Shown piece after piece: positions 1 through 64,000 of a DNA stretch of 64,000 nucleotides. The stretch is from positions 110,195 through 174,194 of the forward strand of contig BDIU01000164.1 of NCBI GenBank assembly GCA_002118135.1, read 5' to 3'. The position numbers were made by a program, and so were the translations under genes. Below the pieces are notes generated by a model. That model searched no databases, was not told the origin of the DNA, and worked only from the letters and a program-made list of their open reading frames with translations. The first letter of the stretch is position 1; the number at the start of each line of letters is the position of its first letter. The stretch comes from Trebouxia sp. TZW2008. Taxonomy: Eukaryota > Chlorophyta > Trebouxiophyceae > Trebouxiales > Trebouxiaceae.

Positions 1-3000
1 TTCCAGTACAGACAAGCTTCCCTACTTGCAATGGGCAGGCAATATAAGCATTTGCTGGCATCATAAACATCTTGTCTTATGTGTTTTGCTCCATGGTGCA
101 GGGAGAGCTGAGCAACCCAGGTGTGGTGCCACGTGCCATTCAGGATGTCTTTGACATCATAGAGAAGACTCCTGGCCGAGACTTTCTGCTGAGAATGTCC
201 ATGATGGAGATATACAATGAGGCAAGTCCTCGCACTGCAACATGTCCATCTGCACAATCTGTCAGCTATGTCATGCTCAGCCTTCAACTTTTGCAGCTGG
301 ATCAATTCAAAGGATCATGGCCCTAGGATAGACCTGACCTGAGTCATGTGGATACAATTGTTGCAAATTGCACACTCGAGTCATGCCAAACATAATGATA
401 CGTTCGTCCTCATACCCATAATGAGGATCCAGTAATGATTGCACACCATGCCCTAAACATCTTGCTCTTGGTCTTTCATCTGGGTGATCTGCAAGAAGTG
501 GTCTTGGTTATACATCTAAGCATGATTTGCACATCAATCTGGATACAGGTACTAAATGACCTGCTAGACCCCTCAAGAGCCAATCTGAAGCTGAGGGAAG
601 ATCCAAAGAGAGGATTCTACGTGGAGGGCATCAAGGAAGAAACGCTTGTGTCTGCTGAGCATGCCTTGTCCATCATTGCCATGGGAGTTGCACATCGCAA
701 GGTGCGTCGATGTCATCATGTGTTGTTTTCAGACAATCATGAGGCGTCATGTTCAGCTTTTACTTCGCTGTGTTGGCTTGAGCGCCGCAGTTTCTTGAGA
801 CATGATGCAAGCTACACCAGGCAAAAGTCACCATTTCAGAAACATGCTGCAAGGACTCAAAATTGTGCCATAAGGCAACAGATCTGTATGACTTGCTGTA
901 TTTCAAAAGACACTGCATGTAGGGCACTGAGGACGTCATCACACATGATACATCAGCATATATCATGCTGCTGTCATGTGTGATCGCTACTGTCATGCGT
1001 AAATGCTGCTTACTGACAAAGCGCATGCTGTTAACACCTCTTTCACCACACGATAACTTGCGCAGTGGTATTGGCTTGAAAGTCCATTGGGCAACAATCA
1101 TGTTATCATTAGGTTATATGTTCATGACTAGGCTGTATTTCTGCAGGTTTCTGCTACATCCTTCAATGAGGGTAGCTCGCGTAGCCATACTATCTTGCGC
1201 CTGTCCATTGAGAGCAGCGAGAGGCCAGATGTGGACGCAGATCCTGATTCCAGGGTCGCTCGCACCTTGAGCTTCTTGAACCTCATTGATCTGGCAGGCT
1301 CTGAGTCTGCTAAAGCAGCAGTGAACAAGGGACACAGGACAGAAGGCAGCTACATCAACAAGAGTCTGCTGACTTTGGGTACTGTGATTGCGAAGCTGTC
1401 TGACGGCAATGCAGCACACATTCCCTTCAGAGACTCCAAGCTGACTAGACTGCTACAGGTGGGGATTAAGCACAACCCCAAAATGTGCTGTTTTGTACAC
1501 TGTCCTTTGGTGCAAAGCATGTTATGTTGCCATGCTTCACACGTCTTGACTGAGACTGCGTGCACAACATGCCAGATTGCTAGCTCAAAGCGTAGCAGGT
1601 CTATGCTCTTTTGTCAGTTCATTGCCAAGCTGTCTGATGGCAATGCAGCCCATATTCCCTTCAGAGACTCCAAGTTGACTAGGCTGCTACAGGTGGGGAT
1701 AGGACCTATGCCCTAGCTGGGCTGTTCTGTGTATTGATACTATGCTTTGCACAACCTGTCACTGTACACCAGCCAGTTCAAAGCAAATTGCACCCAGAAT
1801 GTGGCGGATACCCGACAAAATGGCCAGCAAACCTGCGCTTGTTTTGGTTTTAAGCCAGTCATAGACAGACACAAGGGGCAGAATACGTTTGGGTGCAGTC
1901 ATGCAGAATACCTGGGCATGTCAGAGCCTTGGGAGGTTCATGACTGAAGGACCATTGCCAAAGTGTTTAATATGCAGACAGCCTTGAGAAGTGCCTGTGC
2001 ACTGGCAGGCAGCTGCATCCAGAAGTAGAATCTTGTCTGACGACCTGCCTATGGATGTGCTCGTGTTGCCACTGCAGAGCTCCTTGACAGGCAATGGCGC
2101 ACGCATTTCAGTCATGTGTACAGTCACTCCAGCTTCAAGGCAAGCAGAGGAAACCCACAACACCCTCAAGTTTGCGACCTGAGCTGCAGCTTCTAGCATT
2201 TCTGACTTGCTCTGCAACCAGAGTTGCCGTTCATGCCTTGCAGAGCTCCTTGACAGGCAATGGCGCACGCATACCAGTCATCTGCACATTCACTCCAGCT
2301 TCAAGCCAAGCAGAAGAAACCCATAACACCCTCAAGCTTGCGACCAGAGCTGCAGCTTCTAGCATATCTGATTTGCTCTGCTACTGAACTTGCCATTCTT
2401 GCCTTGCAGAGCTCCTTGACAGGCAATGGCGCATGCATAACAGTCATTTGCACAGTCACTCCAGCTTCAAGTCAGGACAGTGGAAACCCACAACACCCTC
2501 AAGTTTGCAATCTGAGCTGCAGCTTCTAGCATCTCTAACTTCCTTTAGTATTGAACATGCAATCCTTGCCTTGCAGAGCTCCTTGACAGGCAATGGGGCT
2601 CGCATATCAGTCATCTGCACAGTCACTCCAGCTTCAAGCCAAGCAGAGGAAACCCACAACACCCTCAAGTTTGCAACTCGAGCAAAGAAGATTGAAATCA
2701 CAGCGCAGCGAAATGAGATTGTAGATCAGGCGTCGCTCATCCGCCGCTATCAGGAAGAGATTCAGACTCTCAGGTCACAACTGGACACGGTGGCAAGAGA
2801 GCGTGGTGGCCAGATTCCCACAGCTGCTTCAGTGCATGATCCTCTGCACCCTGAGGTGCGCCATCAGAATGAAAGCCACAATATGTTACACATTGTAGCA
2901 CAGGTGCTACACATGTATGCCCCGCATGCTGCCTTGTTAGGCATCACAGCATGGACGTATAATGTTCAAGCATTCAAAAGTCAGATATGAGCAGGCTGCA

Positions 3001-6000
3001 GGACTTGCTCGATTGCACGTCAAATTCTCTTCTCTGTTATGTCGACACTGGTGTCAGAGTGTGCCTGAATGCTGGCTGTACTGTGTCCAACTTGGTGTGT
3101 CCCAGCAGCTAATGATTGACTGTTTGATGGCCTGCTTGACTGATTGGATTTGGTACTCGCTGAAAGACATGTCTTGCAGATGCGCAATCTGCGGGAGCGT
3201 TTGGAAGAAGAGCACCAGGCGCTGCTGACAAGGGAGCAAGACAAGGCTGCGCTGGAGCTGCGCATTGGCCGCCTGACTAAGCTCATTCTGCATTCCACCC
3301 GCATCAACACCAGCACAGCTGCGGCCAGGAAACAGCGCATGAACTTGCTGAGGTCTTTCTCAGAGCATCTCTGCCCCACAGTGAGTTTGTCCATCACATC
3401 ACTGGCCTAATGCATTAGCAAAACCTGGATTAGGCTGCACACCTAGCACTTATGTTCATCTCTTTGTTGTACCCATGCAGTAGCTGCCTCACTCAACTCA
3501 TACTGCACTCCACGCGAATTAACACCAGCACAGCTGCCGCTCAGAAGCAGCGCATGAACTTGCTGACATCCTTCTCAGAGCAACTTTGCCCTACAGTGAG
3601 TTTGTCCATCTCTCTGCTGTCAAATGGGTTCAATACTGGCTTTGTCTTATTGCATCAACACAGCACAGCTGCAGCCAGGAAACAGCACATGAACTTGCTG
3701 AGATCCTCGTCAGAGCACCACTCAAGTGAGTGCCCCCATGGTCTCGTAGCAGTGCGTTGTTCACCCCACCAAGCGGCCAACTGCACTCAACTTGCATGCA
3801 GTGATTGGACCCTATTTTTTGTCGTGCGAAGGCAACAGGAATAGCTTTGGCATCAAGACCAGCGCAGCTGCCAGTAGGAGCAGCGCATGAACTTGCTGAC
3901 ACTTTTCTCAGAGCTTGTTCGATACACATCCATTGTCGAAGATTGTGAACTTGTATTGGCGCTGCTTTGCAACTGCTTCAACTAATGGCAGATGCTCACA
4001 TTGTACCGTATCTGCCACTGCTGAAGAGCTTGCATGCGTCAAGCCTGCACTTCCTTCATCTTGATGTTAGCATCACTCCTCTGCAAAAAAGCCTAAGAGC
4101 TCTGCAACACGGCAGTGTCAGCAAATCCTACTGAACACATGGTGTCTTTTTGCAGCCAGAGGCATACAGCAAGCCTGCACTTGCCTTAGTTTGATCCTAG
4201 CATCACCTGTGCGTAAAAGCCTAAGAACCCTGCACTCATGGCAGTGTCAGCAAGTTCTACTGAACACATGTTGTTGTCGTTTTGCAGCCAGAGTCGTCGA
4301 GATCACTGAGCAAGGCGTCTGGGGACGGCAGCACTGTTGGGATCTGCGCAGACAGTAATATACACAACCATGCTCATATGTGCGCATTTCTGGTATAGCC
4401 ATGCTCATTTTCACCATATTTGAGTGGTCGGCTGAATACGCAATGCTGTGTGGCTGCAGCCAGAGTCACTGAGATATTTGCGCAAGGCGTCTGAGGATGG
4501 CAGCGATGTTGGGTATGATGCAGACTGCCATGCCCATTCTGCTGAACAACCACTTAAATTCGCACTGTCGTCTGGCTGCAGCCAGAGTCATTATGATTGC
4601 TGTTCATTGCCTCCAACCAGCTGGTTGACCCACACTGTTTGTCTGCCTGCAGCCAGAGTTGTTTAGGTCGCTACACAAAGCATCTGAGGATGGCAGCAGC
4701 GTTAGCAACGGTGCAGACAGTAGTATGGACAGCCATGTTTTCAATGTCACGTATCTGAAACAGCCATTCTCACATTTAACCTTACCTGAACAGTTGGCTG
4801 AATATGCTGTGATGTGTGTCTGCAGCCAGAGTCATTGAGATCGCTGCACAAAGCCTCTGAGGATGGCAGCGATGTTGGCAATGGTGCAGACAGCCATGTT
4901 CTCACGTTGTGAAGTATCTAGTTCTGCTCAACAACTGAATGAGCACGCTGTTTTCCGGCCATGCTCACATTGCACAACATCTAAATGCTTAGCATGTACT
5001 GGTGTTTGGCTGCAGCCAGAGTCATTGAGATCGCTGCGTAAAGCCTCTGAGGATGGCAGCAGTGTTGGCAATGGTGCAGACAGTCCAATTGTAGCTGGTG
5101 CAACTCCACAGGAGCTACATCACGCCAACTTGAAGGTGGCTTCTTGGACCTCGCAAAGCGGTGAGTCAAACTTCCCTGGCAAAGGCCCAGCTGTTGTAAT
5201 TGAATGCTATGACAGATTTCATCATTTGTGACGAGTGAGGGCTCTACAATCGAAATGCAAATTTGTCTGGCATGATTGCAGCGCTGTGATTGATAGCACA
5301 GCACCACAGTGTAGCACTGCGCTCAGTACCACGCACAGTATGGAAGCACAGCATTGCGGCACAGCATAGCATGGCACTGCGCACAACATTGCGTATCTCA
5401 CAGCGCATTGTCATTGTAGAGCTGTAGCATAGCATAGCATAGCATAGCATAGCATAGCATAGCATAGCATAGCATAGCATAGCATAGCATAGCATAGCAT
5501 AGCATAGCATAGCATAGCATAGCATAGCATAGCGCAGCATGACAGGACACCAATCAAGCTCAGCAGACCTGATGCTGCCTGCAGAGGAGATACAGTCTGA
5601 CATAAGGCTTGCCAGATATTCACAGCACAGCACAGCACAGCATTGAGCGCTGCGTATAGCATGCAACCACATCATAGCATACTGCAAGCCAGCATGGCTC
5701 ACCTGGGCAATTTCAATGCTGCCTGCAGAGAGGGTACAGTCTGACATAGATTTGCCAGGAACCCCTCCAGGGCTGGACGTGGGCGCCCGCCCTAGCCCCC
5801 AGCAGCTGGAAGAAGCCTTGGCTGGCATCAAGTCAGCAGGGGCTTTGTTTCCAGGAAATGCTTTTGTGTGGCAAGTAGGAGCTAAGCAGGTGATCTGCAT
5901 ATATGGCTTGTGGTATTGTGTTCTGAAGGCACAGGGCCATAGTGCATGTGGGGCTGCATTGGTCATGCAAGAACAAAAATATAGCTTGGTGTAGTCTTTG

Positions 6001-9000
6001 TAACTCACGAGCGAAGATTTCTCATCTTTGGTTGAGAATACACAAACAGCAATACAATACAATCAGCAGCATGATGCTCAAGCTGACTCGTGAAGCATGG
6101 CGTTCATTTTCAAAACACAGCGCACCTCATAGCATTCCCAACTTTGTCTCCCACTGATCAGGGTTGCGCTTTGTTTTTGCATCACTTCGCAAGATTCTAG
6201 AGCTGTTTCCATTGACAATGACTCATACTCGCTGGCGTCTGTGCATTCCAGCAGTCTGCCAGCTCCAAGCTCAACATCCTTCCCTGTTGCTGCAGGATGC
6301 GATGTATGCCCCATACGATGCCGAAATTGATTTCCTGCAAGACCAGATCAGCGTTCTGTCAGACGAGCTTGCAGAGCGCGACAAGCACATTGAGAGCTTG
6401 AAGTCTGAAAGGGTGAGCGTTGGTCGTGAGGCTGGGATACTTACAGGGCGGGGTTCTAGGGCTGGGTCAAGGGCAAGTTCTGTAGCAGCCTCTGATGACG
6501 GTGACCGGGATGTTGAGCTTCAGGTAAGTCGTAAGCCACTGCAATTAAGCATGCAGAGCATCTCTAGGACGTGCACTAAGCTGACACAAGGACACATGCA
6601 CTCACACAAAGTAAGGAGCGCCCACTCTGGCAATTCTTGGAAGCTTGCCTATGGGCTTGTAGCACTCTAGCGTGCTCTCAAGAGCAGGCGAAACACCAAG
6701 GCAGCATTTCTACCTTTGCATGAACATGTCAAGCTCAGAGGACATGTCACAACAGTCAACGCTTTTCAGCAGCTTTGTGCACAGCAGCAGAGCAGAGCAG
6801 ACCTTCTCAGCAATACAATGTCCCATGTCATCACAGCATTGTGCACCTGACAAGGTCTGCGCGCTGATCATGAGTTCATTGCACATGCAGGTCCTGTATG
6901 CTGAACGTGAGTTTATGGCAGCGGAAATCAGGAGTGCCAACACCCACAATGCATCTCTTAGCAAAGAAGTGATGTAGCTGAAACAGCACCTGTGCTTTTT
7001 CGGCAACAATACGTCTCAAGACATCACAGCATGTTGCCTTGTGCAGTCTCTGTATGCTGAGCGAGAATTCATGGCAGCTCAGATCAAGAGTGTCAATGTC
7101 CACAATGCCTCTCTCAGCAAAGAAGTGATGCAGCTGAAATAGCAACTGGCAGCACCACAGGAGGGCATACCAAGAGGGCATTCACAAGGTTTTGAGCAAA
7201 ACTGCTTCTTGATCATGGCATTGTGCATTGTGCAGATTCTGTATGCTGAGCGAGAATTCATGGCAGCCCAAATCAAAAGCGCCAACATCCACAATGCGTC
7301 CCTCAGCAAAGAAGTGGCCCAGCTGAAACAGCAACTGGCAGCAGCACAGGAGGCCACACCAAGAGGGCAGTCCCAGGATGCCCTGCTGTCAGGCAGCAGC
7401 TCAGGCAGCATCAGTCATGACATCTTTGCAGATGCAAACAGGTGGGCAGGCATGCATTGTGGTCTTTGCTTCTGTCACTACTGCTTTTGTTCTTCCTGTT
7501 GTTGTGATGAAGGCATGCGTGTTGCATGCAGCAAGTCAGACCTGTCTTGGGGCTACTCATGGTTGTTGTAATAGCTGCTGCTTTTCAACACTGCAGCTCT
7601 CGCTCATGTTTGCGCAGATGCCTCGAGTGTAGTTGGAAGCATATGTGTCATGCAGTCAAAGTCTGTTTCACCCGTTATGAATCTGTGTTGAGCAGATTGA
7701 GGGTCATCGATGATGGCTGATGAGTTGTAACCCTCCTGGACTGCGATGCGATGTGCAAGTTGTAGTTGCTGCTGTCTTGAAGCTGTTGGTGTCCCTTACT
7801 GTGTGCCCAGTCGTTGACATGTTCCAAAAGCTTTGCAGTCTGACTTGCGCTTCCCAAAGCAATCAACACAAATGAGCACCCATTTGTTCAATATATGCAG
7901 GCTGGCAGCTGAACTAGAGAGTGAGGATCTCAGTCAAAAGCCTCTGTGACAATGTCTACTAGGAGCCAAATTTTGAAGCAGTCATCAAGCTTGACCACAT
8001 GTCACTGAAACATGCAGGCTGGCAGCTGAACTAGAGAGTGAGGATCTTGATCAAGAGCCTGCGCTGCAAACAGCCCCTGGGCCTACACAAGCAGCCCCTG
8101 GGGCTGTGCCAGTGGATGAGGAAGTCCTTGAGAGGCTAAGGGGCATGGAGCAGCAGATTCAGATGGCTCTTGTGGAACTGAAGAAGAAGGACCAGCAGCT
8201 GGCAGCAGAGCGCAGCAGCCTTGGCAGATTCAAGGTGACCTTGCTACGCTGATGCAAAACAAATGGCATGCCATTCTTTCCTTGTGCAGCGTGTTGCTTA
8301 TGGCCAGCTCAAGATCCAATGCCTTGTTCTGCTGCATCACAGGAGAGCCAGCCAGCTTTCACAGCATGTTCTTGATGCACTACAGTGTGTTCTGCAGATT
8401 GCTTATGGCCGGCTGACATCTTAGGGCCTGTCATCTTGCCACACTGACATTAGCCAGCTCAACTTTGAGGGCCTTTTGTTGATGCGTCACATTCCTTTCT
8501 GCACGACACACTGCTCATGGCAAGTCCACGTTTTGTAACCTGTGTATGATGCGTTACAGGAGTTGGAAGCCAATGCCACCGCACAGTTGCGCGAAACCTC
8601 AAGCGAGAACCAGGCCTTGAAGAAAGAGCTGTCTCGCTTGGAGGACCGCAACAACCAGTTGCAAGGGTACGGGCTGGACAACATGTCAGCAGATGAGCTC
8701 AGCAACCTCATACAGAGCCTCACTCAGGTATGCCTCACCCTCACTCAGTGGTGGCGCCTATGCAGGTCATAGATGGCTTACATCTGCTAAATGCTAGTCG
8801 TTAGGTCACGGGCAGTAGACCTAGCTGACTGCTGCAACCTGCTCATGTACTCTTGCTGTTCCTCTTCTGGACTCACATGCATAGGAGGGTCAGCGGCAGT
8901 CATTTCAGCTGACTGCTGCAGTATGTCCATGTCTTCTCCTCTTCCCATTCCTCTTGTTCTTTCATCACACGCATTTCCGTCGTGCAGGCTGTTGAGAGGG

Positions 9001-10119: not shown

Positions 10120-11678
10120 ATGCCGGCCGCTGCTGCAGGGCCGCTGCTGTTCTCTGCCAGCCTCAGAAATGCCGCAAGTTTGAAAGCAGTGCTCGACTTA
10201 GTGGACAAAGACTACAGCCGAGATGCAGGTGCGTGCGTCAGCAAGGCCGACTGCTATACTGAGTTGCGTGCAGCAGGTCAGCATGTCCACGACTGTTGAT
10301 TCTTTGTGGCTTGCGTATGGACAGCAGTCAGCTGACTCAAGCTCAGAGCCTGCAAGCTACTCTCTTGTCAATGAGCTGCTTGCTGTGGACCTGCAGTGTC
10401 CATGCAGATTGACAGGAATGGGCTGCAGATCCACATCATTGATGATGCACAGGTGACCACTCCCAGGGGTGCATTGCCGTCTGATGCACCCCCTGGTCAC
10501 AATTTCTGTGAGGAGCCTACAGCCTATCAAAGTCCCTCCACATGCACCAGTGTGTGCTCATGTGCTTGTGATTACATCTGTGCCTGTGTGCTCGTCACAG
10601 GAGCAAAGTTGCCTGTGCTTTTCAAATTTCAAACTGCGCAGTCAAAGCATACAGCACCTAGCTGAAGCTGCACACATACTTACCACTGGCAACAATGTGC
10701 GAGCTGCAGACCTCCTTTCTGGATGCTTTTTTTCCTGCTGAGAAGTCAGCGTTCTCTCAGTTCAACTGGTAGGTCAGACACATCCCTGATCACTGACACT
10801 GCACTGTCAGCAATTGTTAGCATTTGCGCCCTCATCCTAGCCTGCAAAGTAACGTGGTGTGTTTTCACAGCAAAGCAGAGTTTCTGAAGCTATGGATCAA
10901 ACCAAGCTTCCTGTCAAATGTCCTTAAGACTGGCACTGGCAGTAAGGACAACATCTTGGCTGGTGAGCAAAGTCGTTGAGCCTTTGCGGAATCCTGTGCA
11001 CTAATACTCATGCCAGCCACTATGACATTGTCTGCAAGCCTGTTCTGTAAGGTCCTTCAGAACGCCCTGCAGTACTGTCTAGAGTGCAGGGTCTGATTGC
11101 AGTGAGCACACCCAACTCATTATGCTGATCTTGCTCAGCACGCATTGACTGTCACTGTCACTGTCACTGTCACTGTCACTGTCACTGTCACTGTCACTGT
11201 CACTGTCACTGTCACTGTCACTGTCACTGTCACTGTCACTGCTGTCACTGTCACTGTCACTGTCTCCTGCAGACTCATGGTGATCTTGCCCACAGCATGT
11301 CATTGTTCAAGTCAGATGTGAGTGCACCAGACTGGCCTGGATTGCATAGAGCCTGGGGCTGCTTGACCAACCTTTGCAGGGAGTCAGACTTGATGCACAT
11401 TTGTGTAAGGGACCAAATTGATACTGAGCGGTGTTCAGTGTTGCGCCAAAAGGCAAAATGTGGATGCAGGGGCATGTGTTAACATGGCAGTGCATGAGCC
11501 AGCAGATCATCTGCTGCTGACAGTGGACCCTCTGCTCAGCTCAGGCAAGGCTGGAGCGCGCGTCAAGCACACCATCACACTGCTGAATCCTGCAAATGGT
11601 ATGTCAACCTCCATTTCTGTCAGTGCCCCTGACCTAAAAGCTCCTTCAATCTAGATGCAAAGCTGCAACTGCCAGCTT

Positions 11679-11743
<65 letters not shown>

Positions 11744-11744
11744 A

Positions 11745-11781
<37 letters not shown>

Positions 11782-28170: not shown

Positions 28171-31100
28171 ATGGGCCTGGGTGTTGACGAAGGTGCAGCA
28201 AAAAGCAGCGGCGAGGCAGACGATGCCGCCACCAGCACACAACACAGCGATGCGGGCAGCATCCAAGCTGAGAGCTCACAGAGCAGCTCCGGCAGCCGTG
28301 ACAAGGACTGGATCAGGCAAGTTTCCGTGCTTGTTATACATCTTGAAGCGCAAGCACGTGCCATCATTGTATTGTCTAGCGCAGGCACCGTATGCATGCT
28401 CATGTTAAGGTCTGCACTCTGATGTATTGCTGAGCTGCCCAAGGTGCTTGACAATGGGCAAGATGTATTGCAGTGGTCTGTGCTTGCAGCAGCTCAAAAA
28501 GTGCAGCAGCGTCATTGCCAAACATGTCAAACATGACGAGCGCCTTCTCCCATTTATGCTGACAGCCACTGCAAAACTGAATGCAAACGTTGCAGTCTGC
28601 ACTTATCCCAAAATTGAACAGTATGCACAAGCAGATACCCCTCACATGATAAAGCTAATCATCAATGCTGCAACCAGCATTTGCCCCATGCATTCCAGGC
28701 TCTGCAGTGTCCATTCAATTTAGCAGTTGTCAATAAAAAAATGTGTCCCCAACCAAATTGACAAGCATACAGCCCTTCACGTTCAAGACCCATTGCCTGT
28801 GCATTATCTCTCGTGACTGACAGCACAGCTCAGATGCATCTTCAGCTGCTAACAGCTTCATATCCACTTGACAGATCTGCTGAGGCATTTTGGTTGCCAT
28901 TCACGTCATGTGACATCATCAAACCCATTGACATCTGCCAAGACTGACGCCTGTCTCTTCTCTTGCACAGAGAGATGGACTCACCTCCTAAAAGGAGGGA
29001 AGCCCTACCCACCCCCAAGCAGAAGGATGACAACAGCAGCATATGGTCCATCATGTGGTCCATTTTGAAGGAATCCTTAGGCAAAGACCTGACCCATATC
29101 ACCTTGCCGTTCTTCTTCAATGAGCCACTGTCTGTCCTCCAGAAGACCATGGAAGACCTTGAATATGCCAACTTGCTCAACAAGGTCAGAGTCTCAAGTT
29201 ATGCCCAGACCTTGACGCTAGACATGGATGTTCATGACGTCACTGTGCTCATCAAGGGATAAAACATGCGTTTTGACATCACTGTGCTCAAGGGACAGTG
29301 AAGCACATACAGCAGCATCAATGCACTCCAATGCACTCAGTCACAGCAGCTTTCAAGCCCGGTTCCCTGCGTGCCTCTAAAACGGTGTGACCCTGTTGAC
29401 CAGAAGTGAGTGTGGTGCAACGTCCTTCCCACAGGGGCTTTCTACAAGCCATGCATGCATCCATGTCAGGCAATGCTGCACGTCACAGACATAATTGCAG
29501 GCAGCAATGTGCCCAGCATGAGCACTCTTTTATCTGCAACGTCATCACCCGAATGACCTCAAAAGTGAAGATAGACTCACATAAGTACAGACACATGTTT
29601 TGCAAGCAAGGCCCACACCTTTGGACGTGCAGCAGCAGAGTGCAACCAAAGTGTCTATTGTACAGGCAGCAAGCAAGCCCCCACAGACAATGCATGCTGT
29701 ACCTGGCAGCCTTTGCAGTGTTACCCTACTCAGGCACCGATAAACAATTTTTGAAGCCAATCAAACCCCTGCTTGCAAAATAGGCAGGAAATGATGGAAA
29801 AGCATCAGCACAGTGTCATACAGCTTTTGTATGTTGCAGGCAGCAAGCAAACCCCCACAGAGCATTGAGCGCATGCTGTATGTCGCGGCCTTTGCAGTGT
29901 CATCCTACTCAGGCACCAACAACCGCTACCTGAAGCCGTTCAATCCTCTGCTTGGAGAGACCTTTGAGTTTGAGTATCCAGAGCAGAATTGGAGAGGCAT
30001 TGCTGAAAAGGTGCTGCTTGCCAGACTGTTATCCTGTTTGCTTGTTCCTGGGCTCCACTACTTCAAGCTGATGTGACATATGCTGTGGCCCATGCAGCCT
30101 ACTGCATACACACTAGCAGGCCCTGGGACACAGTCTCTTGCCCAAGATGACAGAGTGCAATGCTGCTGTAACAAAGCTACACGCCAACTTTCATGAAAAT
30201 GTTAATCTTTCAAAGCTATTCCTGAGATCGCAATTGACCAAGTGATCACTGACAAGCTTGCCTACTGCTGTCAGCAATCACAAGACAGCATGCATGCTTT
30301 CCTGTCACCATGCACTGACTACCATACCTGCTGACACACAGGTGAAGCATCATCCAACATCTTTGCAATCCATAGCAAGGGTGACAGCTGGAGCTTTGCA
30401 GCAGATAGACTTTGCACTGAACACCTTAAGTGCTGACACACAGGCGGTGCACCACTCCACCATCGTTGCAATGCATGGTGAAGGCGAGAGCTGGAGCTCT
30501 GCAGCAGATGTAGATGTGCTGATCATTAGACCTGCTGCTAAGCAGGTGGTGCACCACATCATCTTCACAATATGCACAGCAAAAGCGCACATGCGATGTG
30601 TTATGTGCTGACTCGTACACCTGCTGATACACAGGTGGTGCATCATCCAACGATCATTGCAATGCATGGTGAAGGCGAGAGCTGGAGCTTTGCAGCAGAT
30701 GCAGATGTGCGAGCCAAGTTCTGGGGTCGATCTGTTGAGCTGGCTCCTGTTGGGCTCATCAGACTCAAGTTTGACGATGGAGATGAGTACAATTGGGCAA
30801 AGGTGAGCAAAACAAACGATTGAGTCAGATTTATGATTGTTTGTGTGAAATTGCAGATTGCAGGCCAACTTTAATGGTGGGAGTTGATATAAACTTTATA
30901 TTATAAAAGTATGCAGCTTGCTGCTCACGCATGCAACGTAGGGCTCACGCAGCATTGCTTAATGTCAACTCAGGGACTTAATGCCAGCAGCGTCCTGCAT
31001 ACATTGGCATGGACACTCTCAGCTGTATCTCAGTTCTGGTCGGATCGTAAGTGCATTTGCAGGTGACTTTCAAGTGCAAGTTAAGGACAAGAGCAAGTTG

Positions 31101-36495: not shown

Positions 36496-36531
36496 TGCAA
36501 TCAGGGCATGGCCTGCTGCAGGCTAACTGCA

Positions 36532-36710
36532 TACGGTGACTTCTCGTGTCAAGGACACTCGATGTAAGGATTTGCTTGATATATGGACAATGCTATCGGG
36601 AACCGATCACTGTGTTTTTGACTGCAACGGCAGCTCCCAGTGAGAACAATTCAGAGCAAGGATAGTTTACCTGGTACCCAAAGCAGTCGTTGCAAAGAGA
36701 AGTCACTGTA
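36532..36710 (+). mobile_element. MITE copy 1 (TA-flanked, mariner/pogo-like)
   Basis: Left end TACGGTGACTTCTCGTGTC, right end reverse complement TACAGTGACTTCTCTTTGC; 179 bp. Internal GTAAGGA-type blocks (AAGGACACTCGATG) and GGGAACCGATCACTG match the other copies. It lies between the SDR stop and the convergent ARL16-like gene. Confidence 0.8.
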
Positions 36711-37022
36711 ACTGCAGTGACGATACTCTGTGCAAGTTATGTGGCATATGCATCAGCTTAGGAGTGAGTGATGTCGCAGATACTCTCGTGCCCAAATGAC
36801 CTTGAGTTTTGCCACTGCATGGCCAACCGTGTTGTGTACCACATGTTCAAGCACAGCAAAACGGATGCTGCTGCACGTGCAGCACCTTGAATGGAAACCT
36901 GTTGCAGACGCTGGGCAGCAACTTGACACGATTTGACGCAAGTCATGTTAGCATCACAAGAGACACAGCGCTTTGAAAATGGCTTCAATCTGGATGCTTG
37001 GCAGCGATCTGATTGCCTGCTG
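36711..37022. other. Convergent intergenic stretch
   Basis: Nothing recognised between the MITE and the ARL16-like stop. Confidence 0.4.
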
Positions 37023-38639: not shown

Positions 38640-41600
38640 ATGGACGAAGCGGCTGACAGCACTGGTGTTCCATATGGTGCAGCAGATCAGCAAGGACCTG
38701 TTCTGCAGCAGCAGCCACCAGATACAGTCAGTAATGCGCAAGCAGCTGGGGACAGGTTGACGCCTGAAGGAGCTGCAGCTCCAAGCACAAGCAACAGGTA
38801 CTTCAGCCTTTTGCTCCAGCTTTGTTTCAGCTTGAACACACCTCTACCTACGCGCAGCTGCCAGAAAATATGCCTTGTGTCGTGCTGTACGCTATAATCA
38901 TGTCCCACCCTGCTAGCCGAGCATCTGGTCACCCTTTCAAGGAAAGTTCTGGAAACTCTCACACCCACAAGCACCTCACTGGCATTCTCCATGAGTGCAG
39001 GCCGCCCCCAGTGCCACGATTGAAGAACTCAGGCACTCAGTCCCAGCTCAGGGTCACAGAGTTTGATGAAGATGTGTCAAATTGGGGTCGGCAAGCCATG
39101 GAGGATCAGGTCTGTCACTTGAGCCTAATTGCATCAATGCAACACCTGCAACAATGAAAACCTCATCCAATTGGCCAATCATGCAATATCATGTTGCACC
39201 CTGGCCAGTCCAAGTGAACTTGTAACACATTGGGGACTGCATAATTTATCGAAAGTCTTGCAAACAGGCTGTATGCACCAACTTGACTGCAACCTCTTGA
39301 GGCCCCAAATTGGGAGAATGTGAATACTGTGCTATTTGACTTTCTGCAAGCAGCCTAGCTGCATGTGTGGAGAACATCAAGGTCCTTATTATCTCAGCAA
39401 CGGCCACCACAGTCAGGCTCATGGCCTGATTGACTGCATGCATTCAAGGCGTATGCTGAAGCAATGAGCAGTCTCTCAGTTTGTCCTCTTCAGGACTATG
39501 AGGACGATGAGATGTCCCACGCCAGCCTGAGCAGCGGGCTGAGCCCCAGGGAGTCTAGGCCCCGCACCAAGCCTTGGGACCTACAAGATGGCTACAAGGT
39601 AGTCTGTGCCAAGTTGCTTGCTTTTTTGGGGCACGTTCAAGACATGCATGATATGCAGGCAAATCTGACCATGCCTCTTTCATCATGATCTCAAAAATTG
39701 TCAAGCATGTCACAAGATTTGTCGGAATGAAAGTTCCTGCGGCAGTATCGCCATGTGGAGCAAATCCTGGATCAACAGGGCGACAGCTTCTTCAAGCATA
39801 TGCCAGCATGGAATGTTGCATGCTGCTGTGACCGGGCTCACGTTGCCTGTTGGCTACTCCTCAACTCGTCCAAAGCAACACCTATATTGGCCCTAAGCAA
39901 ACAGTCACAGACAGGTGCACTAAGCAGATTGGCAGTCAGCATAATGCTTACAAGCGCAATGACCAAGCTGCTTGTGGACGCAGACACTTCCATTACAGTG
40001 CTTGACAGCTTAGATTTTTCTGGTCTGTTTGGTCGTGCCCAACATGCACTGCATTGTGTACATACATGAATGCCTTGCACCGTCGCCACACACATGCAGC
40101 ACTCAAGCCCTGCTACTTGCAGAATCTGTCATAACATTTGCGCTGTACAGCAGGGCTCAAGCCATGCAAAAAGAGGACAAGTCCCCAGCTAACATTGGCA
40201 TGGCGGAAGACCTGCCAATGCGCTTGGCAGCAGAGCAGCTGCAGGCCCTTGTCGGCATTACAATCGTGCCTTAGGGTACCAAACATTCACTACTTACTGT
40301 CTGCAGAGTCTGGCATATCACTCAGCCCTGTACAGCCGGGCTGAAGCCATGCGCAAAAACGGCGAGTCCTCAGTCAACATGGGCATGGCAGATGAGTTGC
40401 CAATGCGCTTGGCAGCAGAACAGCTGCATGCCCTTGCTGTTACATTGTTCACTGGGGCACGTACTGCTTGCAGAGTCTGGCATACCACTCAGCGTTGTAC
40501 AGTCGGGCCCAAGCCATGCGAAAAAACGGCGAGTCCCCAGCTAACATGGGCATGGCAGATGATTTGCCAATGCGCTTGGCAGCAGAACAGCTGCATGCTC
40601 TTGCTGGCATGTCCCAGAAGGTGCAGGAGGCCTTAGTGCACAGCCAGAAGGCTTTTGAGCACCAGCATCTGCTGGCAGGAAAGGCCCTCTTGAGAAAGGT
40701 GGTCAAGGGCTGGCTGGGAGTCAAGTAAGTGCTTTTGCATGATGCTCTCGAAGGGCTGTCAAGCCTGTGTGCGCGTCACTTGAATTGCTGACTTGTTCTC
40801 TGTCTGGTTGTCTGACAGCATGCCTTCCTGGCTGACCCAGTATAGGTAGTGCTGCAGAAATGCAGTGAGCTGAGGGAAGAGTGTATCAATTCAGTGACCA
40901 GTGTGCACAGAGGCAACAACAAAGTAGCAGAGCTACAGCGAATGCATTGTGCATTGTCACTAGTGTCACTAGCCACAGCTTGCAGTATACATATGCGCTC
41001 TGACAAGGCCAGAATTTGCAAAAGTTACAATCAGCAGAAGCTTTGCTGCGCTCTCAGTCCAGAGCCAGTTAGGTGCAAAGGGCATATGTCATATATGATT
41101 GCAGCTAGATTGCAGCCAGAAGCGAAGATATAGGTGCATGCAGAAGATCGTAGCAATTGTGCATGAAGGTGGAGTGCAGCCAAAACAAGACAGTACGTGC
41201 TACTCACCATGTGAGCAAGTACTTTGCAATGCAGCTTAGCGCATTGCAAACCAGTTCTGGTGTTCCTGGCAGTGATCAATGAAGCAGCTGCATTAAGTGC
41301 TCAGATTCATCATATCCTTGGGCAGCAGAGGTAGATTGCAAGCCTGGCTTATACGTGAATAAGGATCCGGATATTCACGACATTGCGAGTGTCCTCGAGG
41401 GTGCCTTGCAAGCCAAGACTTTGACTTGCAAGGTGCGACTTAACATTTCGATGCAATCAGACTTGTCTGCAAATGCACAGTAGGCTACACAGTGTAGTCT
41501 TGTGGTTTCGTAGAGACAGCTGCCTGTTGCTGTTGACAGCTGTTGCTACTAAACCTAAGTATACCCAATATATAGCCTACTGCAATGTTGATGGCAAGTC

Positions 41601-49691: not shown

Positions 49692-52600
49692 TCAAGGCTG
49701 CTCTGCCTTTTTTTCCATCGGCACCGGCAGGCTCTGCAAATTAATGTGCTGGCAGTCAAATGCTGCTTGAAACCCAACGCGCCTCTGCAGAAACGTCTGA
49801 AGCCTGGCACGCATGTACTGATGGCTGGCCATGTGTGCCATCATCAGCACCAGTAGCATCCCCCCTTCAATGATCATGGTTGGGGTATTGCACAACAGCT
49901 GGGCTGTGGTGGTCCAGGACATTGCTGTGGCTGTCACCAGCAGCGCTATGACGACAGCCCCAGCCAGAAACACTGCCAGAATGTGCCCTGCACACTGACC
50001 CACTCGATGACTGATGCGCCCAAAAAAGGACGGAATGTCAAAGTCAGGAGCAGCAATCTGCGGCAGTCTGAGGACGGCTGCCAGCTGCTGGTCGGTCTTG
50101 TCTAGCGCATCACAGTGCTGTAGAATGGCCGTGGTTTGGCGCCTCATGCAGTTCCTCAGGACGAAAGCATCAATGAAGCCTGCCTGCGGCAAACCTCTGT
50201 TGTCAACTTGTGATGCCTCAGCATGCTTCACTCAAAGACAAGCTTTGCAGGGGGACTGAGGTGTCTGACAAACGCTGACATGTAGCTTGGCAATGTCTTC
50301 AAGGCAGCAATATATGTAGTGCGCGGGCTGAAGCAAGCGAATTAGCACTGGATGAGCATTTTGTTGGTATACAATTGTGATTGTTGATGACGCATTTTTG
50401 CAGCGAGATGTCAGAGCCTGCAGTACTACATCAGCTCCCTCCTTCCCCCTTGCAAGAAGCCCTTTGCAGCAGCAACACTGCAATTACTGAGAACATGTTG
50501 CGACAGGAAGGTTGAACGCACCAAAACTGTTTTGCAGCTTCTTTGCAACTAGACACTCAGCAGCTTTGCAGTTGCTGCATCTGCTGCCACAGCAGCAGAA
50601 ATGATCTTCAGCATGCTCCGAGTGCAGCAGCAGCATTTCACACATTGTGGGTTTAGGGGTCAAACTAAACCCTAAACCCTGAACCCTAAACCCTAAACCC
50701 AGCATGCAAAGTATCAGCTGAACGCTGTGATTCTTCATCATGCCAGCTCTCATACGTCAATCGCTGCAACACAGAAGGTCGCTTTTTGACCAGACTCACC
50801 AAATGGCAAATTGGGGCAATCCAATTGGTTTCAAAAGCATGACTTGCTACTGACCAGGCTGGTGCGAGCGCCAAAGATGAGCAACTACTTAGCATCGTCA
50901 AACAGCACTGGCTGTCGCAGCAATAGCGTGAAGCTGTGGGCAATGAACAATAAGACAGCAGAAGCTTGTCAGACCAATGTAGGTGCCAGTGATGGGCTCC
51001 CAATTCATGCCAGACATGAATGGCTGTTACAGTGTCTTCTGGGCTTGAGCAAACAGATCACTGCAATCTGACTGCAAAAGTACTTCTGAGTGAGGAGAAA
51101 TCAATGTCAAGGACAATTGGATATAAAAACAAGTCTCTTGGGAATCCAATGCAGTGACTATATCCAGATGTGCAACAGCGTGAGGCCGTGAGCAGAAGCA
51201 ATGAGGCGGCCGCAGCTTACCAAGCCCGTGTAAGTGCCAATGATGAGCCACCAATTGGCATTTCCATAGCCCATGATGGAACCGATGACCAACCAAATTG
51301 CCAGCAGAATAATGCTGAGGCAGATGCCACCAATGGAACCAATGAAATTTGCATACCGATCCACAATGACGTACAAGCCAAAGTGGCGCTTCCAGAAGCC
51401 GATGCTGGTTTGTTGCTTGGGGACGACTGGTTCAGTCAGTGTGGACTGCTCTGAATGTAGCTCCTGCAGTAGTGAATGTAGTAGCGGTGCATACAGCAAT
51501 ACTGCATATAGCAGCAGTGTGTGTAACACTACAGCAAACTCTCTTTGTAAGGACACTTGATGTAAGGACAATCTCGATGTAAGGACAACGCCATTGGTAA
51601 CCAATCACTGCATTCTGAATGCACTGGTCCCCCTGAGTAAGGACGATTCGATGTAAGGACAAGTTTCTTGGTGACCAAAGCAGTCGTCACAAAAAGACTT
51701 TACTGTACTGTGTGCAGCAGTGATGCATGCATCACATTTTGCATAGAGCAGCAGTGCATACAGCAACACTGCATATAGCAGCAGTGCTGTAACAGTACTG
51801 TCTGTAGCAATGACGCATGCATCAAACTTTGCATGGAGCAGCAGTGCATACAGCGCCAGTGCACGTAGCAGGATTGCATATGGCAGCAGCATATTACAGA
51901 CTGCGTGTAGCAGTCTGTAATAGCCATAATGTAGTATATGGGGCGCAAAGGTGTATCCAGAGTACCCTCCTAACCCCCGAGAAGCAACATGACATGTACT
52001 GGGGCGCACGCACTGGACTCCATGCCTTGGCAGAGGCGCCACCCTCCCCAAGAGCTTTGGCAGCAGCCCCACCAGCCTGCTCAGGGCCCTGAGTAGCAAG
52101 CTAAAAGTGCATTTCTGTGTGACTTTCACCATATGCAAGTTGTAGCAGCAAGATGTACCTGGCAGTCTTTGGTGGCTGCGACAAGACGCTCTTCCAGCTG
52201 TTGATCTAGGCCCGCCAGCAGTGCAGAGCAGCAATGCATGTATGAACGGTGGCGGCGCTTGGTGTTCTGCAGAAAGGTGGTCATCACCATCAGCTCCACA
52301 GCTGTGGCCGTGTTGGCGTCTAGCTGCCAGTTGTCACCAAAGCCCATGTGGCGACCCAAGGCAAGCCAAGCCACAATCCCAGCTGCATTGCCATGTTTCC
52401 GTTAGTCTATTTATCAGCTCCACATGTCAGTGACAGTCCATGCTAGCTGTCAGCGCTGTGGGCAATCAGCAGTTAGCAGTTATGCAGCTCAGATGCAACA
52501 CATATAGCTTCAGCTACAGACCACACCAGACCTCATATTGTAACAATTTTTGGCATTTGCATAACCCTGGCGTCAGTGCTATGACGCAAACATTACCACA

Positions 52601-56421: not shown

Positions 56422-59400
56422 ATGGCACCTCCTGCCTATGCCATCGACAACATGCAGGACGTTGGAGGACTGGGTTTTGGCCCAGATTCTGACAAGTTTG
56501 CCCTGACCACGGACACGGTCGATGCGCCGCTGTCTGTCGCCATCGAAAAGTCTGGCAAGCCAGTGAAATACTGGGAGTGAGCGCTATGCAGTTGCTGTGC
56601 TTGTAGCGGATTTGCTGCCCGTGGCATTTATGCTGATGTCGTTTTGACTCCGCTGATTGCACTGCTCCGACAGGTATCAAGTGCACGCTCTGTCTTCGTT
56701 GCTGGTCGGTAATGGACATGTCAGGCCCGGCGAGATGCGGCGTGCCATTGAGTTCTTGCCCACGACCGCGTTTTCCACCAAGACCTATTGTGAGTGCTAA
56801 TCTGTATGCGTGCGTTCGCGCTGTGTGGTATCCAAACTCTGCATGAAGTATTTTGGCTGGTGCGTGCGATCAAAAGTATTCAGCTTGACACGCGCTTGCA
56901 TCCATATTTCCCCCAGCGAAAAACTTGAACGTGCTGCAGCAGCAGCTGATCACTGGAGGTCGATGGAGTTTCTTACGGTGGCTGTTTTTTCTGCAGACGA
57001 GAAATGGGCCTCGGCCATTGCTACCACCATGATTGAGCGAAAGACGATTACGCAACCAGAGCTGGACGCCGAGCTTGGTCTCGAAACCGAGGAACCCCCT
57101 GTCAAGTGAGTCAACGCCTCATCTTTGACGAGCATGCAGCAAGACAATGCGCACTGGAACCGTGTTCGCGTTGTTGGGCGTTTTCAGGATGATGTTTGCA
57201 AACGTGACGTGCGCATCGCTTGGGCCTGAACGTGACAACATCGTGTCACATGCAGATACGGGCCAGGCAGCTATGTCAGAGTGAAGCCTGAGGATGCTGC
57301 AGTGCGCTACCGCAAGCCTCATCTGCGAGTTCCAGGTCAGCATTTTTTGCAGCGATTGCACTGTTGCTGCCTGCAACTTGCTGTGGACTGCATGGAGGCT
57401 GTGAACCCCTCAGCTTTTCAAAACTCACTTGCGCGTGAAGGGTGCGGCGTTATACGATATTGCTGAAAGCTAGCATGTATGCGCATACATGGATGGCTTC
57501 ACAGTATGCTCCAGAACTGCTTTGTGCTGACTTGCAGGGTACTTGTATGGCGTTGTTGGCAGAATTGACACGGTAAGTTGCGACAAAGAGCTGCATGAGA
57601 GCTATGTTGTGTTTGCAAGTGCCTGTATTGGTATGCCTGCCATTGATGCTCAGGCTGCTGGCTGCATGTCATTGCTGCATTGTCTTGCTGTACAAGTATG
57701 CCTCCTTTGAGCAGCACGCCTTGCCATGATTTTGTACTTGTTACAGTGCACATCAACCGACTGGGTTTTTCCATGCAGCCCACCATTGGTTATGTGGAGG
57801 AGCCTGACATTGATGCCTTCCAGTGAGTAGTCACAACTTACTCGATGCTACAGCTGCTGCAACTTTGTCTGCGCGTTGGCTTGAAGAGTTTCTATACAGG
57901 GCTGTGTAGGCTGTCTCAAAACATGAAAGTCAGCAGTTCCGTTTGATGTTCGCCAAACGCTTGATGCACCCAGTCAAAAGTGAAACCAGCACATGCTCAA
58001 GACTTGTGTTGCCAGCTCACAGCAACATCTGCATGTGTCAGTACATCTTTGCTTGTCCACTGTATCAAACTCCTGGCATTAGCGCCGTCACTATCACTCT
58101 GGAAAGTGCGGACCGAGCATGCGTGCATAGGCATTTCTCTTTCTCATCACCAACATTTGGCATATAACTGACTGTGCATGTGTGTGTAGCTATGTGGAGG
58201 GTCCTCAACAGCCAGTGTACAGAGTGGTGTTCTATCAAAAAGACTTGTGGGAGGGTTACCATGGCACTGACTCTGACAACCTGGAGATTGAGGTAACATC
58301 TGACTAAAGCTTTGCCTCTGACCAAGTCTGACTGACTGAGACAACATGTGAATGGAGATCACATCTGAGTTTGGTTTTGACAGACTTGGACGCTCAAGTG
58401 TCTAGCTCTGCTTTAGAGATGAGAAAGTCTAGACACCAGGGTTGCATCTGACTGCATTGTGACCTTCTGACTTTGACTTTTAGATTCCTTTATGTTCTTA
58501 CAATACTTGACGATTCATTGATGATCATTTGATGTTACTGATAAATGTGACAACTTGCTTGCATGCTGCCGCAGCTTTTGCAATGTACCTGACTGGATGT
58601 GACTGCATTGCAGATCTGGCAGTCCTGGCTCCTTGACTCATCAGAAGAAGAGTTCAAGAAGCAGCAGGCCAACCGCCTCAAGCCTCCTGAGGGTTTTCAC
58701 CCTGACGGTCACAGCCACAGCCATGACCACGACCATGGACACTCTCACGAGGAGCGCGAGCAGGTGGAACTGAACGCTATCAAGGCTGAGGGGGACGATG
58801 CTGAAAAAGCTCGCCTCATCCAAGCACTCATCAAGGTTGGCCCTTAGCTGCTTCTCCTCAACAAACTACATTGACAGTATGAATGACGTGGTGTCAATCA
58901 TGATTGTGGGCACCAAAATCTGCATTGGGAGCATGTGCAAGTGCAGTGGGTCTCAATAAGATTGATGGAAACGGTGCTGGGGAGACTGGCATCAATCAGC
59001 CCCTCATCAAGGTTTGCCCCTTTGCAGCAATCCTGACCAGTGAGAAGCTGAGTGGTACAGGCTGATAGGTGACCAGCATCCATGTAGGCAAGAGCTGCTG
59101 CATCCTTTTGTCTGACTTTCAACAGTTGAACATCAGGCGTCCATGTCGCGATGCTCAAGACAAGCCTGCCTGGCGAGATAGGACTTGTGCCACACATCCC
59201 TAGCAGTTTCTGCTGGAATATGTTACTGTTATTATTATTATGAGCACAATCGACATTGCATGCGGCTAGGCATGTACATCATGTGTTGTGGTTTTCAAGA
59301 GCTATAATTTCATTGCAGGAAGCCAAGCAGATTGTGACAGCAGCAGCCACAACTGCCCACATTGCAAGGCTGAAACCAAATGGCAGCAATGCTTCTGGTT

Positions 59401-62400
59401 GTACATAGTTGCAAGGTCAGCATGACCTCTTGCAAGCTTTGACCTGTTTCCTGGTGGTGCTTGGATGCAGACTTTGACAGCCAAGAAAGTGGTCACAGCA
59501 GCTGACATCACTGCCCAAGCGAAAGTCATATAGCATTTGGGGCCTGGGACCTCATTTCCATTGTACTGTGCCGCATCAATATGAACTGTGCTTGTTTGCA
59601 GATCCTGACAGCCAAAAAAGTGGTAACAGCAGCTGACATCACTGCTCACATTGAAGAGCTGGAGTCATATGGCAGTCGGGGCCTGGGGCCTCGGGTGATT
59701 GCTCGGGCCTGGACCGACCCGGAGTTCAAGAAGCGCCTGCTCAAGGATGGTGTTGAAGCTGTGAATGAGCTGGGTATTGAGGCTGGTGGTTGGCTGCCTT
59801 ATGGTGGAGTCACTGGTATGCAGCTCACACTTGTGTCGGTACAGAAACAGGTTTTCATGAGATCATGTACTCAGCCAAAACCTTGCTGCACAAGCTGGCA
59901 ACCATTACTTCAGCTTGAGAGCTGTTCCATGGCAGGCGTCAGCTGACCAGCATGGTGCGCAACTGACAGTAAGCTGTGGCGTGGAATTCCTGATTTAGTG
60001 ATCATGTCATATGCTTGTTGTGTGTTGTTGCGCCATGTGGAGCCCGATAGCCAGCTGATCTGCACCTTTCAGGACATACCAAGCCTGAGTTGGCCAAAAG
60101 CCATGCCAACAGCTTCCCAACAAATCTGCATACATGGCGTTGAATGCTCATCAGGCAACAGCCCGAAGTTAACAGCACTGATCCAGTTTCTGGCAACATG
60201 TTGTCAGCAGAACCAGCATTCATACTGGTCACTCCAACTGTGGTCCTCACCACAGCTGCGCCTACAGCTGCTGTGGATGCATGCGGCAAACCACAGTATC
60301 TGGGTCTCAGAACTGCAGACACTGCCGCAGGCATGATGTACTCTTCTGTGGCATGCAGAGTCTCGTAACCAGCTGTCAAAGCTTTCTTCTGGTTCAGTTG
60401 TTGACTGGCAGCCTACATATGCTTCAGATTGATTGTTTGCTTGCGTGAAAAGGGTAATTACCCTTACCTGGCGGTTTGACATTTATCAATAATGTTGTTT
60501 TTCACACTGTAAGATATCGTGCAAACAGTATGCAGTTTGATGCGGCAGCAAGGCCTAGCTAGGGCGTCAGCCAAGATCACACTGACAGCAGATTGAGAAG
60601 TTACTGCTGTTGCTTGTAGAGGCCAATGCTCAGCTGTCAGGCATCATTTTGAAGGTTGTGGAGAACAAGCCTGGTGTGCACCACCTACTGGTGTGCACGC
60701 TGTGCTCCTGCTACCCCATCTCAGTCCTGGGCATGGCTCCTTCCTGGTACAGTGTTTCCTCTTTACAAGGACACTCGGTATAAGGACATTCTCGTTGTAG
60801 GGACAATGCATTTGGGAACCAATCACTGCATTTTGACTGTAGTGGTATTTCTGAGTAGGAACAATTCAATGTAAGGACAATTATCCTGGTAAGCAATGCA
60901 GTTGTTATAAAGAGAAATTACTGTAAATGCGCTCTCGTACGTCATGCCTTCTGTAATGCCTTGCAATTGATGCCTTCTGCGCTTATTCCTCGTGAGTGCC
61001 TTTGTCTTCTGCTATCAGCTTCTTGCTCTTCACTTGCGCTCTTAGTCAGCTGCTCTTGCTAATCCATGTCAGCCTTGCGCATGGCTCCTTCCCAGAGATT
61101 CCCTTTTGCCCCATGTTCTGCCTTCTGCTGACGCCTTTCAGTCGTTCTTCTTGTGCTAAGTGCATTCGCCTCCGGCTGTCAGCTGTTTGCTCTTTGTTGG
61201 TGCTGTTTTGCTCCGTTCTGCTGCTACCCCATCTCAATTCTGGACATGGTCCTTGCAGAAATTATTTTCCATGTCATGTCATGTCGTGCTTTTTTACAGT
61301 TGAGGTGTTTGTCTTGTCGTTTTTGCCATCAGCTTTTCATCTTGTGCTTTTTTGCCAAGGGACTCCTGCAACCCCATCTCAGGCTGGGGTGTGGCGCATT
61401 CCTGTTGACTCCTCTCCTACCCCCTTCACCACTCTCTCTCGCTCTTGCAAATTGGACTTCCTGACCCTGACAATTTTTGTCTTTCAACAAACGGCTTCTG
61501 CCTTGCTGTCAAGTGCCTTTCCCTGTCACTAAAGCTTGTCTGGTCATGGCCCACACCTGACATTGCCCTCAAAGCCTGTATGATTCATCCCTTTGCCTTA
61601 TGCTGTTTTGCTGCTGCTGCTCTTTGTTGTCTTGTGATGAAGGCCGGGGCGATGTCCTTTTGCTTTTTTCTTCCTGCCGTGGTCTTTGTCAAAGTGATGG
61701 AGCCTGTTTTGCACCCTTTCTGCCAGTCTCCTGTGATGATGCCCATTCTAAATTCCTTGCATCCCTTCACATCTGTGTTTTCCGCCCTATCCTTCCTGCC
61801 CTGAAGCTCACTGAAGCTTAATTCAGCTGTGTCCTGTTTCAGTTCCGCTCCGCTCATTCAGATCATTTCACTTCATTTCAGTCCAGTTCATTTCAGCACA
61901 GCAATTTTGAGCATGTGACCCCTGTTTGGCGACCTGCATGTATCCTGTCAGGGGGCCACAACTGCATCCTGCCTCGTCTCGTCTGTCCTGCAGTTCATTC
62001 TAGTCTAACCAATGTCCACTACAGCATAGTCCAGTGCAGTTCAACTGCACAGCATTCAGTCTAGTTCCGCTCAGTTCAGTGCAGATGAGACTGGTGCGGT
62101 GCGAGTGAGTTGTGTGCCGTCCATTGCACTTCATTTTGTTTCAATCAGCTCAGCCCAGTTGTAATGATCCTTTCGCAATTCGAACCAACGACCTGTTGAT
62201 TCGCCGTCTGCCACGTTAACCCCTTGGCTAAAAGGCGGATTTCTGATGTGGATCCATGTAACCCAACCTTTACACCAATTCAGTGCAGTGCAAAGCAGTT
62301 CAGTTCAGATTAGCGCAAAGCAGTTCAGTTCAGTTCAGTTCAGTTCAGTTCAGTTCAGTTCAGTTCAGTTCAGTTCAGTTCAGTTCAGTTCAGTTCAGTT

Positions 62401-63662: not shown

Positions 63663-64000
63663 TTCAGGTACATCTGCCTAAGAGTACAGGCAAAATGACA
63701 TGTCAACAGGTTTTGCAAAAGATGCGTCAAACTGCATGTCAGCTGAAATCAGCAGGGAGACCCTTCACCCCTAAAAATGCAATGTATACGGCTTCTTCAT
63801 TGATTAGTGATCCAGCTGCAGCCTCCCTTTCAAGCTCAGGTGAGTGAAGCACCTGCCTGCTACAGCAGCATATCAGCTGCGGCTGCTTGCAAGCTCAGCA
63901 ATCACCAAAACTGAGAAAGCAGTGAAGGCACATCATGATGGCAATGGCAATGGCAATGGCAATGGCAATGGCAATGGCAATGGCAATGGCAATGGCAATG
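63663..64000. other. 3' flank with an exon echo and (GGCAAT)n satellite
   Basis: 63735-63785 (CQLKSAGRPFTPKNAMYT) is a degraded copy of the final exon's AQLKKDGGVFYPKSEGYK. A GGCAAT hexamer array runs from about 63939 to the window edge at 64000 and probably continues. Confidence 0.75.

Follow-up and report, generated by a model that had tools for sequence, protein, structure and literature searches.

Introns of the alga analysed here contain partial copies of the exon edges that adjoin them, and the copies obey a strict rule of side: copies of exon starts are found upstream of the exon concerned, those of exon ends downstream of it. In a sample of 34 kinesin gene regions (169 modelled introns, 338 splice junctions, median intron 395 bp, 73,967 intron bases) we found 86 such copies at 47 junctions, comprising 30 acceptors and 17 donors, in 39 introns. 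In this sample 88 repeat pairs join exon to intron with a score of at least 45 bits; all of them are direct, lie in the adjoining intron and follow the rule of side, just as the original prediction had it, and each array copies its own exon edge.

The window, a stretch of 64,000 nucleotides at the end of one contig, comes from a draft assembly of 68.5 Mb in 527 contigs. Its GC content is 48-52%, and the sections of two reports on published Trebouxia genomes that give size and GC content list comparable values (PMC12712428, PMC11523091). The top named homologues of the window's kinesin are proteins of Trebouxia sp. C0004 and C0009, and on such similarity we treated the host as a Trebouxia-like green alga, presumably near a common lichen partner. 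A viral-contig scan gave no result. The scope of all tests is one genome, in which arrays that share a gene are non-independent, and the thresholds and simulation parameters were our choice. Gene models were built with our own splice-aware aligner, the kinesins without RNA. For the first 9.2 kb of the window, spliced alignment to a Trebouxia-like homologue (P0004) gave consecutive GT/GC-AG exons of a kinesin gene, KIN7; a short terminal exon at 13792 was dropped from the model as an alignment end effect. The ORP gene, modelled from the protein P0121, has eight exons and seven introns in 5.2 kb, and its spliced translation is identical to P0121 at 441/441 residues; as the contig of P0121 comprises 2117 nt, against a 5.2-kb gene with seven introns, it probably represents spliced RNA. 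GC-AG introns occur in KIN7 and ORP at window positions 222, 28317 and 31856 (GAG|GCAAGT once and CAG|GCAAGT twice). An intron-rich eukaryotic nitrile hydratase gene occupies positions 56735-60780; its model, based on P0241, covers residues 1-340 of 431 with 269 identities, 71 mismatches and 92 gap positions. Three homologues of this protein were detected at E<=1e-30 among 3204 candidates, one of them from Trebouxia sp. C0010.

Self-BLAST of the window revealed 52 repeat pairs, 39 of which are direct and less than 6 kb apart. The KIN7 repeats lie in introns adjoining the copied exon and amount, under the P0004 model, to 14 copies at 7 junctions (Table 1). Eleven further direct pairs in this gene comprise two exon-to-copy, eight copy-to-copy and one intron-only pair; the former two connect exon end 3380 with 3652-3717 and 3850-3914, which escaped our copy rule because the matches stop 14-15 nt before the exon edge. 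ORP contributes three exon-start copies, and nitrile hydratase one exon-start and one exon-end copy. The array at 2073-2677 matched only itself among the best genomic candidates scored. Exon models thus bear out, for kinesin, ORP and nitrile hydratase, the earlier claim that window introns hold copies of adjoining exon edges. For the SFI1-like and FET4-like genes, which were scored without a homologue-based exon model, the repeats themselves were recovered (p=0.002 for FET4-like), and the last copy of the SFI1-like array runs on as an open frame. The places named at the time correspond to individual copies: 1618 to 1621-1700, a copy of exon end 1458; 3493-3920 to the copies of exon end 3380; 50962 to 50920-51023 (p=0.002); and 58985 to 58958-59025 (p=0.003).

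Table 1. Exon edges and their copies in the window (positions are those of the whole stretch).
Feature	Position	Strand	Basis
KIN7 exon, functional end 1458	1147..1458	+	spliced alignment to P0004
Copy of exon end 1458 with 8 intron nt; identity 92.5% at an offset of 234 bp	1621..1700	+	
Three start copies of exon 2577-2855; offsets 166, 332 and 499 bp	2073..2576	+	
KIN7 exon, functional start	2577..2855	+	P0004 alignment
KIN7 exon, functional end 3380	3180..3380	+	P0004 alignment
Three end copies of exon 3180-3380 (3477-3610, 3652-3717, 3850-3914)	3477..3914	+	
Tandem pair, intron-only (4032-4161, 4162-4293)	4032..4293	+	
Five start copies of exon 5016-5160	4283..4893	+	
KIN7 exon, functional start	5016..5160	+	P0004 alignment
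One copy of the start of exon 5729-5889	5572..5615	+	
Two start copies of exon 7236-7441	6886..7186	+	
One copy of the start of exon 8018-8234	7895..7943	+	
One start copy of ORP exon 29840-30010	29629..29775	+	
Two start copies of ORP exon 30635-30802	30311..30519	+	
Two start copies of SFI1-like exon (~40464), without homologue-based model	40113..40440	+	
Copy of FET4-like exon end region (51172-51279), p=0.002, without homologue-based model	50920..51023	-	
End copy of nitrile hydratase exon 58614-58835; 47/67 aligned bases identical, p=0.003	58958..59025	+	
One start copy of nitrile hydratase exon 59602-59815	59457..59553	+	

The window also carries repeats of other kinds. A dispersed repeat of about 160-185 bp is present at four places (36532-36715, 44001-44187, 51525-51708 and 60748-60930), 71-78% identical and inverted at one of them, and is possibly a short mobile element. 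Simple arrays with units of 5-6 bp (TAGCA, ACTGTC, CAGTT, ATGGCA) lie at 5425-5533, 11148-11264, 62296-62419 and 63938-64000, the last being the contig end. Repeats of the CTAAACC type, which we take to resemble plant-type telomere repeats, are found within the contig, at window positions 50665-50700 and 62618-62648.

The kinesin sample was assembled from 146 exon matches of PF00225 in the genome; it includes the window's gene and leaves out three single-hit contigs, and its exons were modelled with a profile made from the genome's own kinesin exons. With this genome-profile model the window's gene accounts for 3 of the 47 junctions. Self-BLAST inside the modelled spans (E<=1e-3) yielded 153 direct pairs with an offset of at least 40 and 19 inverted pairs. 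None of the 153 direct pairs joins two exons, neither of the two inverted pairs of at least 45 bits touches an exon, and at the same score there are 12 intron-only pairs in 7 clusters. The nearest copy lies 73-358 bp away (median 145), copies are 65-97% identical across the matched stretch, and the matched stretches contain 26-147 bases of exon. Tests on the wrong side of junctions reached p<=0.01 in 3/163 cases, against about 1.6 expected, and tests on the right side of junctions without a detected array did so in 11/277 cases, against about 3 expected; thus a few weaker copies were missed, yet most junctions show none. Chance is excluded as the source of the pattern.

Similar repeats were found beyond the kinesins. 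Chaperonin genes, for which profile hits served as exon proxies, contain 27 direct and 8 inverted pairs; exon-to-non-exon pairs are on the expected side in 11 of 12 cases, and 15 more direct pairs touch no hit. The profile-hit table for two HSP70 genes points the same way, with starts repeated before the full exon on contig C150 and an end repeated after it on C165. In both genes hits overlap in model position (C150:63970-64534, C165:299000-299534), the copies being listed as exon matches. Since profile searches report some copies in this manner, the copies can mislead gene prediction. The wide occurrence originally foreseen holds for the kinesin sample, with recurrence in the chaperonin and HSP70 genes, though not for most introns, as 130 of the 169 kinesin introns contain no detected copy. 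The arrays are moreover clustered by gene (none in 16 of the 34 regions, eight in a single one, C79; p=0.00015), for which expression, location or age may be responsible. We regard it as most improbable that the copies are an artefact of assembly: its 527-contig draft state is the only point we found in favour of this explanation, whereas the copies differ from their exons to the extent given above, the spacers between them have often diverged, the pattern recurs in unrelated genes, and the ORP exons match an independent transcript-derived protein.

Codon positions show how exons and copies evolve. Where an array has two or more copies, the changes shared by all of them relative to the used exon number 8, 3 and 29 at codon positions 1, 2 and 3 (p=6e-7), while changes private to one copy number 41, 45 and 59 (p=0.15) and those of the farthest copy 45, 38 and 54 (p=0.24). 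The used exon is thus constrained, and the copies evolve neutrally. It has been proposed that they could provide decoy splice sites, and decoys are indeed possible, because at the projected splice position AG is kept in 25 of 56 copies and GT in 17 of 30. These retained signals, together with the clustering of arrays in some genes, would also suit a broader explanation, namely that copies are retained for a function, e.g. as decoy sites or as platforms for splicing factors. We consider such retention improbable, as changes in the copies lack a significant bias by codon position, such as coding constraint on a functional alternative exon would leave, the exon-edge copies (islands) and the spacers diverge at similar rates, and the transcript-derived ORP protein P0121, the one gene checked, uses none of the intron copies.

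The effect on intron size is pronounced. Introns that host arrays (n=39) have a median of 644 bp, compared to 345.5 bp for non-hosts (n=130; p=2e-13), although host introns were perhaps longer beforehand and longer introns may be hit more often. After subtraction of the distance to the outermost copy the host median becomes 356 bp, indistinguishable from non-hosts (p=0.93), whereas subtraction of the islands alone leaves 434 bp (p=0.001 vs 345.5). Arrays cover 18.2% of all intron bases in the sample. The medians therefore agree that arrays lengthen their introns, by about the extent of the array, as had been predicted.

Analysis of array architecture reveals traits of tandem arrays combined with others that a plain tandem duplication does not produce. 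In 16 of 39 comparisons, consecutive spacings differ by no more than 5 bp (3.8 expected, p=5e-5), so the period is often constant and specific to the array, while the majority of spacings are less regular. Of 33 spacer pairs inside arrays, 18 are related (p<=0.05). By the same threshold, however, sequence beyond the outermost copy is related to the spacer in just 1 of 20 multi-copy arrays and 6 of 25 single-copy ones, and the arrays consequently have the form island-(spacer-island)n. Duplication of the whole unit including the spacer was found only in a minority, which indicates that the arrays work like tandem arrays without all being plain tandem duplications. Repair-mediated duplication would give interspersed copies with unrelated spacers and in either orientation; here the spacer is unrelated in the majority, but the orientation is exclusively direct. 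Homology on the intron side mostly ends no more than some tens of bases from the junction, and in arrays without spacer homology the match spans from just before the junction to some tens of intron bases. In comparisons of copy with copy (54 pairs) the exon-derived part is 83% identical and the intron-derived part 60%, against 55% for unrelated intron pieces. Among unit pairs with related spacers, islands diverge less than spacers (0.136 vs 0.187; lower in 16 of 21, p=0.02), with no consistent divergence gradient along the islands. We also divided the arrays by hand into classes with and without spacer homology, for descriptive use only; exon-part divergence at codon positions 1 and 2 is alike in both (0.081 and 0.101). 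The possibility that spacers are hidden exon copies was rejected, as 5 of 43 qualified at p<=0.05; for acceptor 3 of C112 the spacer matches sequence just beyond the modelled domain end, so its exon part is underestimated. The predicted decay of copies with distance proved weak: in 21 arrays the farthest copy is the less similar one 12 times and the more similar one 7 times, with 2 ties.

The simplest account, i.e. random tandem duplication followed by neutral decay, with the junction focus due to ascertainment and exon-internal duplications purged, would explain the side, the orientation, the missing exon-exon pairs and the neutrality of the copies, and intron-only duplications do exist. We nevertheless judge it unlikely, because uniform tandem duplication with neutral decay, when simulated, fitted poorly. 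The simulated intron part of a copy has a median of about 70 bp at >=84% identity, compared to the observed 10 (from the 23 of 47 nearest copies with at least that identity, 19 of which have <=31). Intron-side homology at p<=0.01 is detected in 14 of 43 arrays, against about 39 expected from tandem duplication with equal neutral decay in power-matched comparison, and junction arrays outnumber intron-only clusters 47:7, against about 1.7:1 in the simulation.

We put about even confidence in an explanation in which introns grow by local direct duplications that overlap junctions, followed by exchange-driven expansion of arrays. The founding event would be a local direct duplication overlapping one splice junction, and the duplicate would persist solely if the mature protein is unchanged, which places a start copy upstream and an end copy downstream, as observed. 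Since any protein-preserving direct duplication over one junction must give the observed side, neither side nor orientation calls for targeting; of the junction-centred process originally suggested, the widespread edge copies and the lengthened introns hold, while targeting to junctions is no more than possible. Retention of the protein does not, for its part, account for intron-side homology that ends so close to the junction. The copy would be removed with the intron, as in ORP, and would then decay neutrally beside a constrained exon; because one partner is constrained, exon-edge copies should stay recognisable longer. Unequal exchange between islands may multiply spacer-plus-island units and so generate the periodic arrays, whose period and architecture are as described. 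The founder was probably a tandem duplication, of which the outer spacer has since diverged beyond recognition, and exchange with each other and with the constrained exon may keep the islands alike. The sharp intron-side boundary implies either that the founding spacer is lost faster than the islands, or that the founding event copies the exon edge only. The former option agrees with the intron lengths (356 rather than 434), with the related flanks of some single arrays and with the lower divergence of islands, and conflicts with the rarity of related outer flanks, with the island-(spacer-island)n form, with the deficit of intron-side homology, with the low identity of intron-derived parts between copies and with the 47:7 excess of junction arrays. 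To rescue it, the islands must have been refreshed, for which the observations provide mild support. Strong gene conversion, considered since copies seemed too young for their spacers, was rejected in view of the small divergence difference and the absence of a consistent island gradient.

The latter option corresponds to junction-anchored copying, the main rival, in which repair or template switching puts the exon edge alone (tens of exon bases with a short stretch of intron), perhaps from a pre-mRNA fragment, into the adjoining intron without a duplicated spacer, and arrays then expand through exchange between islands. It readily accommodates the array form, the intron-side boundary near the junction, seen in many donor as well as many acceptor copies, and the paucity of spacer matches (a local match for 8 of 30 spacers from arrays hand-classed as lacking spacer homology; relation to the outer side, at p<=0.05, for 16 of 43 spacers). 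It also fits the observation that intron-only pairs are mostly near-complete tandems, while in the 26 single junction arrays the median copy length is 0.46 of the offset. However, it does not by itself predict the exclusively direct orientation and the strict rule of side, the host intron lengths fit tandem duplication better, and outer flanks are related in 5 of 25 single arrays at p<=0.01. That such copying occurs at all is a tentative proposition, and we are equally reserved about its full form, in which copying from DNA or pre-mRNA recurs and island exchange builds periodic arrays, with about a quarter of the sampled introns lengthened as a result. We lean towards tandem founding combined with exchange between islands.

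In our view, transposon-independent lengthening of introns in compact genomes still lacks a good explanation. Human introns have reportedly been derived from tandem arrays, with tandem repeats spanning exon-intron boundaries (Zhuo 2007). Exon-edge arrays offer a concrete route of intron growth, as the extra length of host introns is matched by that of the array; because sides, periods and relative ages are measurable, the growth mechanism can be tested across strains of one genus. No earlier report of the pattern was found in the portions of the literature searched, among them passages on introns and exons in Trebouxia or lichen-alga genome papers. Several known systems share some of its features, as far as the consulted sections of the respective papers describe them. 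Intron gain by tandem genomic duplication (PMC4974935) likewise involves local tandem duplication with splice signals and an unchanged mRNA, but the new intron arises inside an exon, whereas the Trebouxia copies sit in introns already present. Repair-mediated duplication by capture of proximal DNA (PMC2671141) also generates short local copies that include exons and splice sites, and two copied exons described there lack coding constraint. In the human set of that study, however, partial exon/intron donors account for 4/824, and any insertion within 50 bp of its template was discarded as tandem, whereas the Trebouxia copies are mainly exon edges, direct, one-sided and often arranged in periodic arrays. 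Internal tandem repeats of human paralogues (PMC2812944) span exon-intron boundaries as well, but their effect, in young paralogues, is to change splicing or give rise to introns, while the Trebouxia copies are intronic and ageing. Relatives of Chlamydomonas with unusually long introns (PMC8226300) provide a parallel among green algae; the sections concerned leave the mechanism behind intron length open and, unlike the situation in the Trebouxia-like genome, report no exon-edge copies. Finally, introner elements and transposons would place the same sequence at many unrelated loci; each Trebouxia array in the kinesin sample copies the exon edge beside it.
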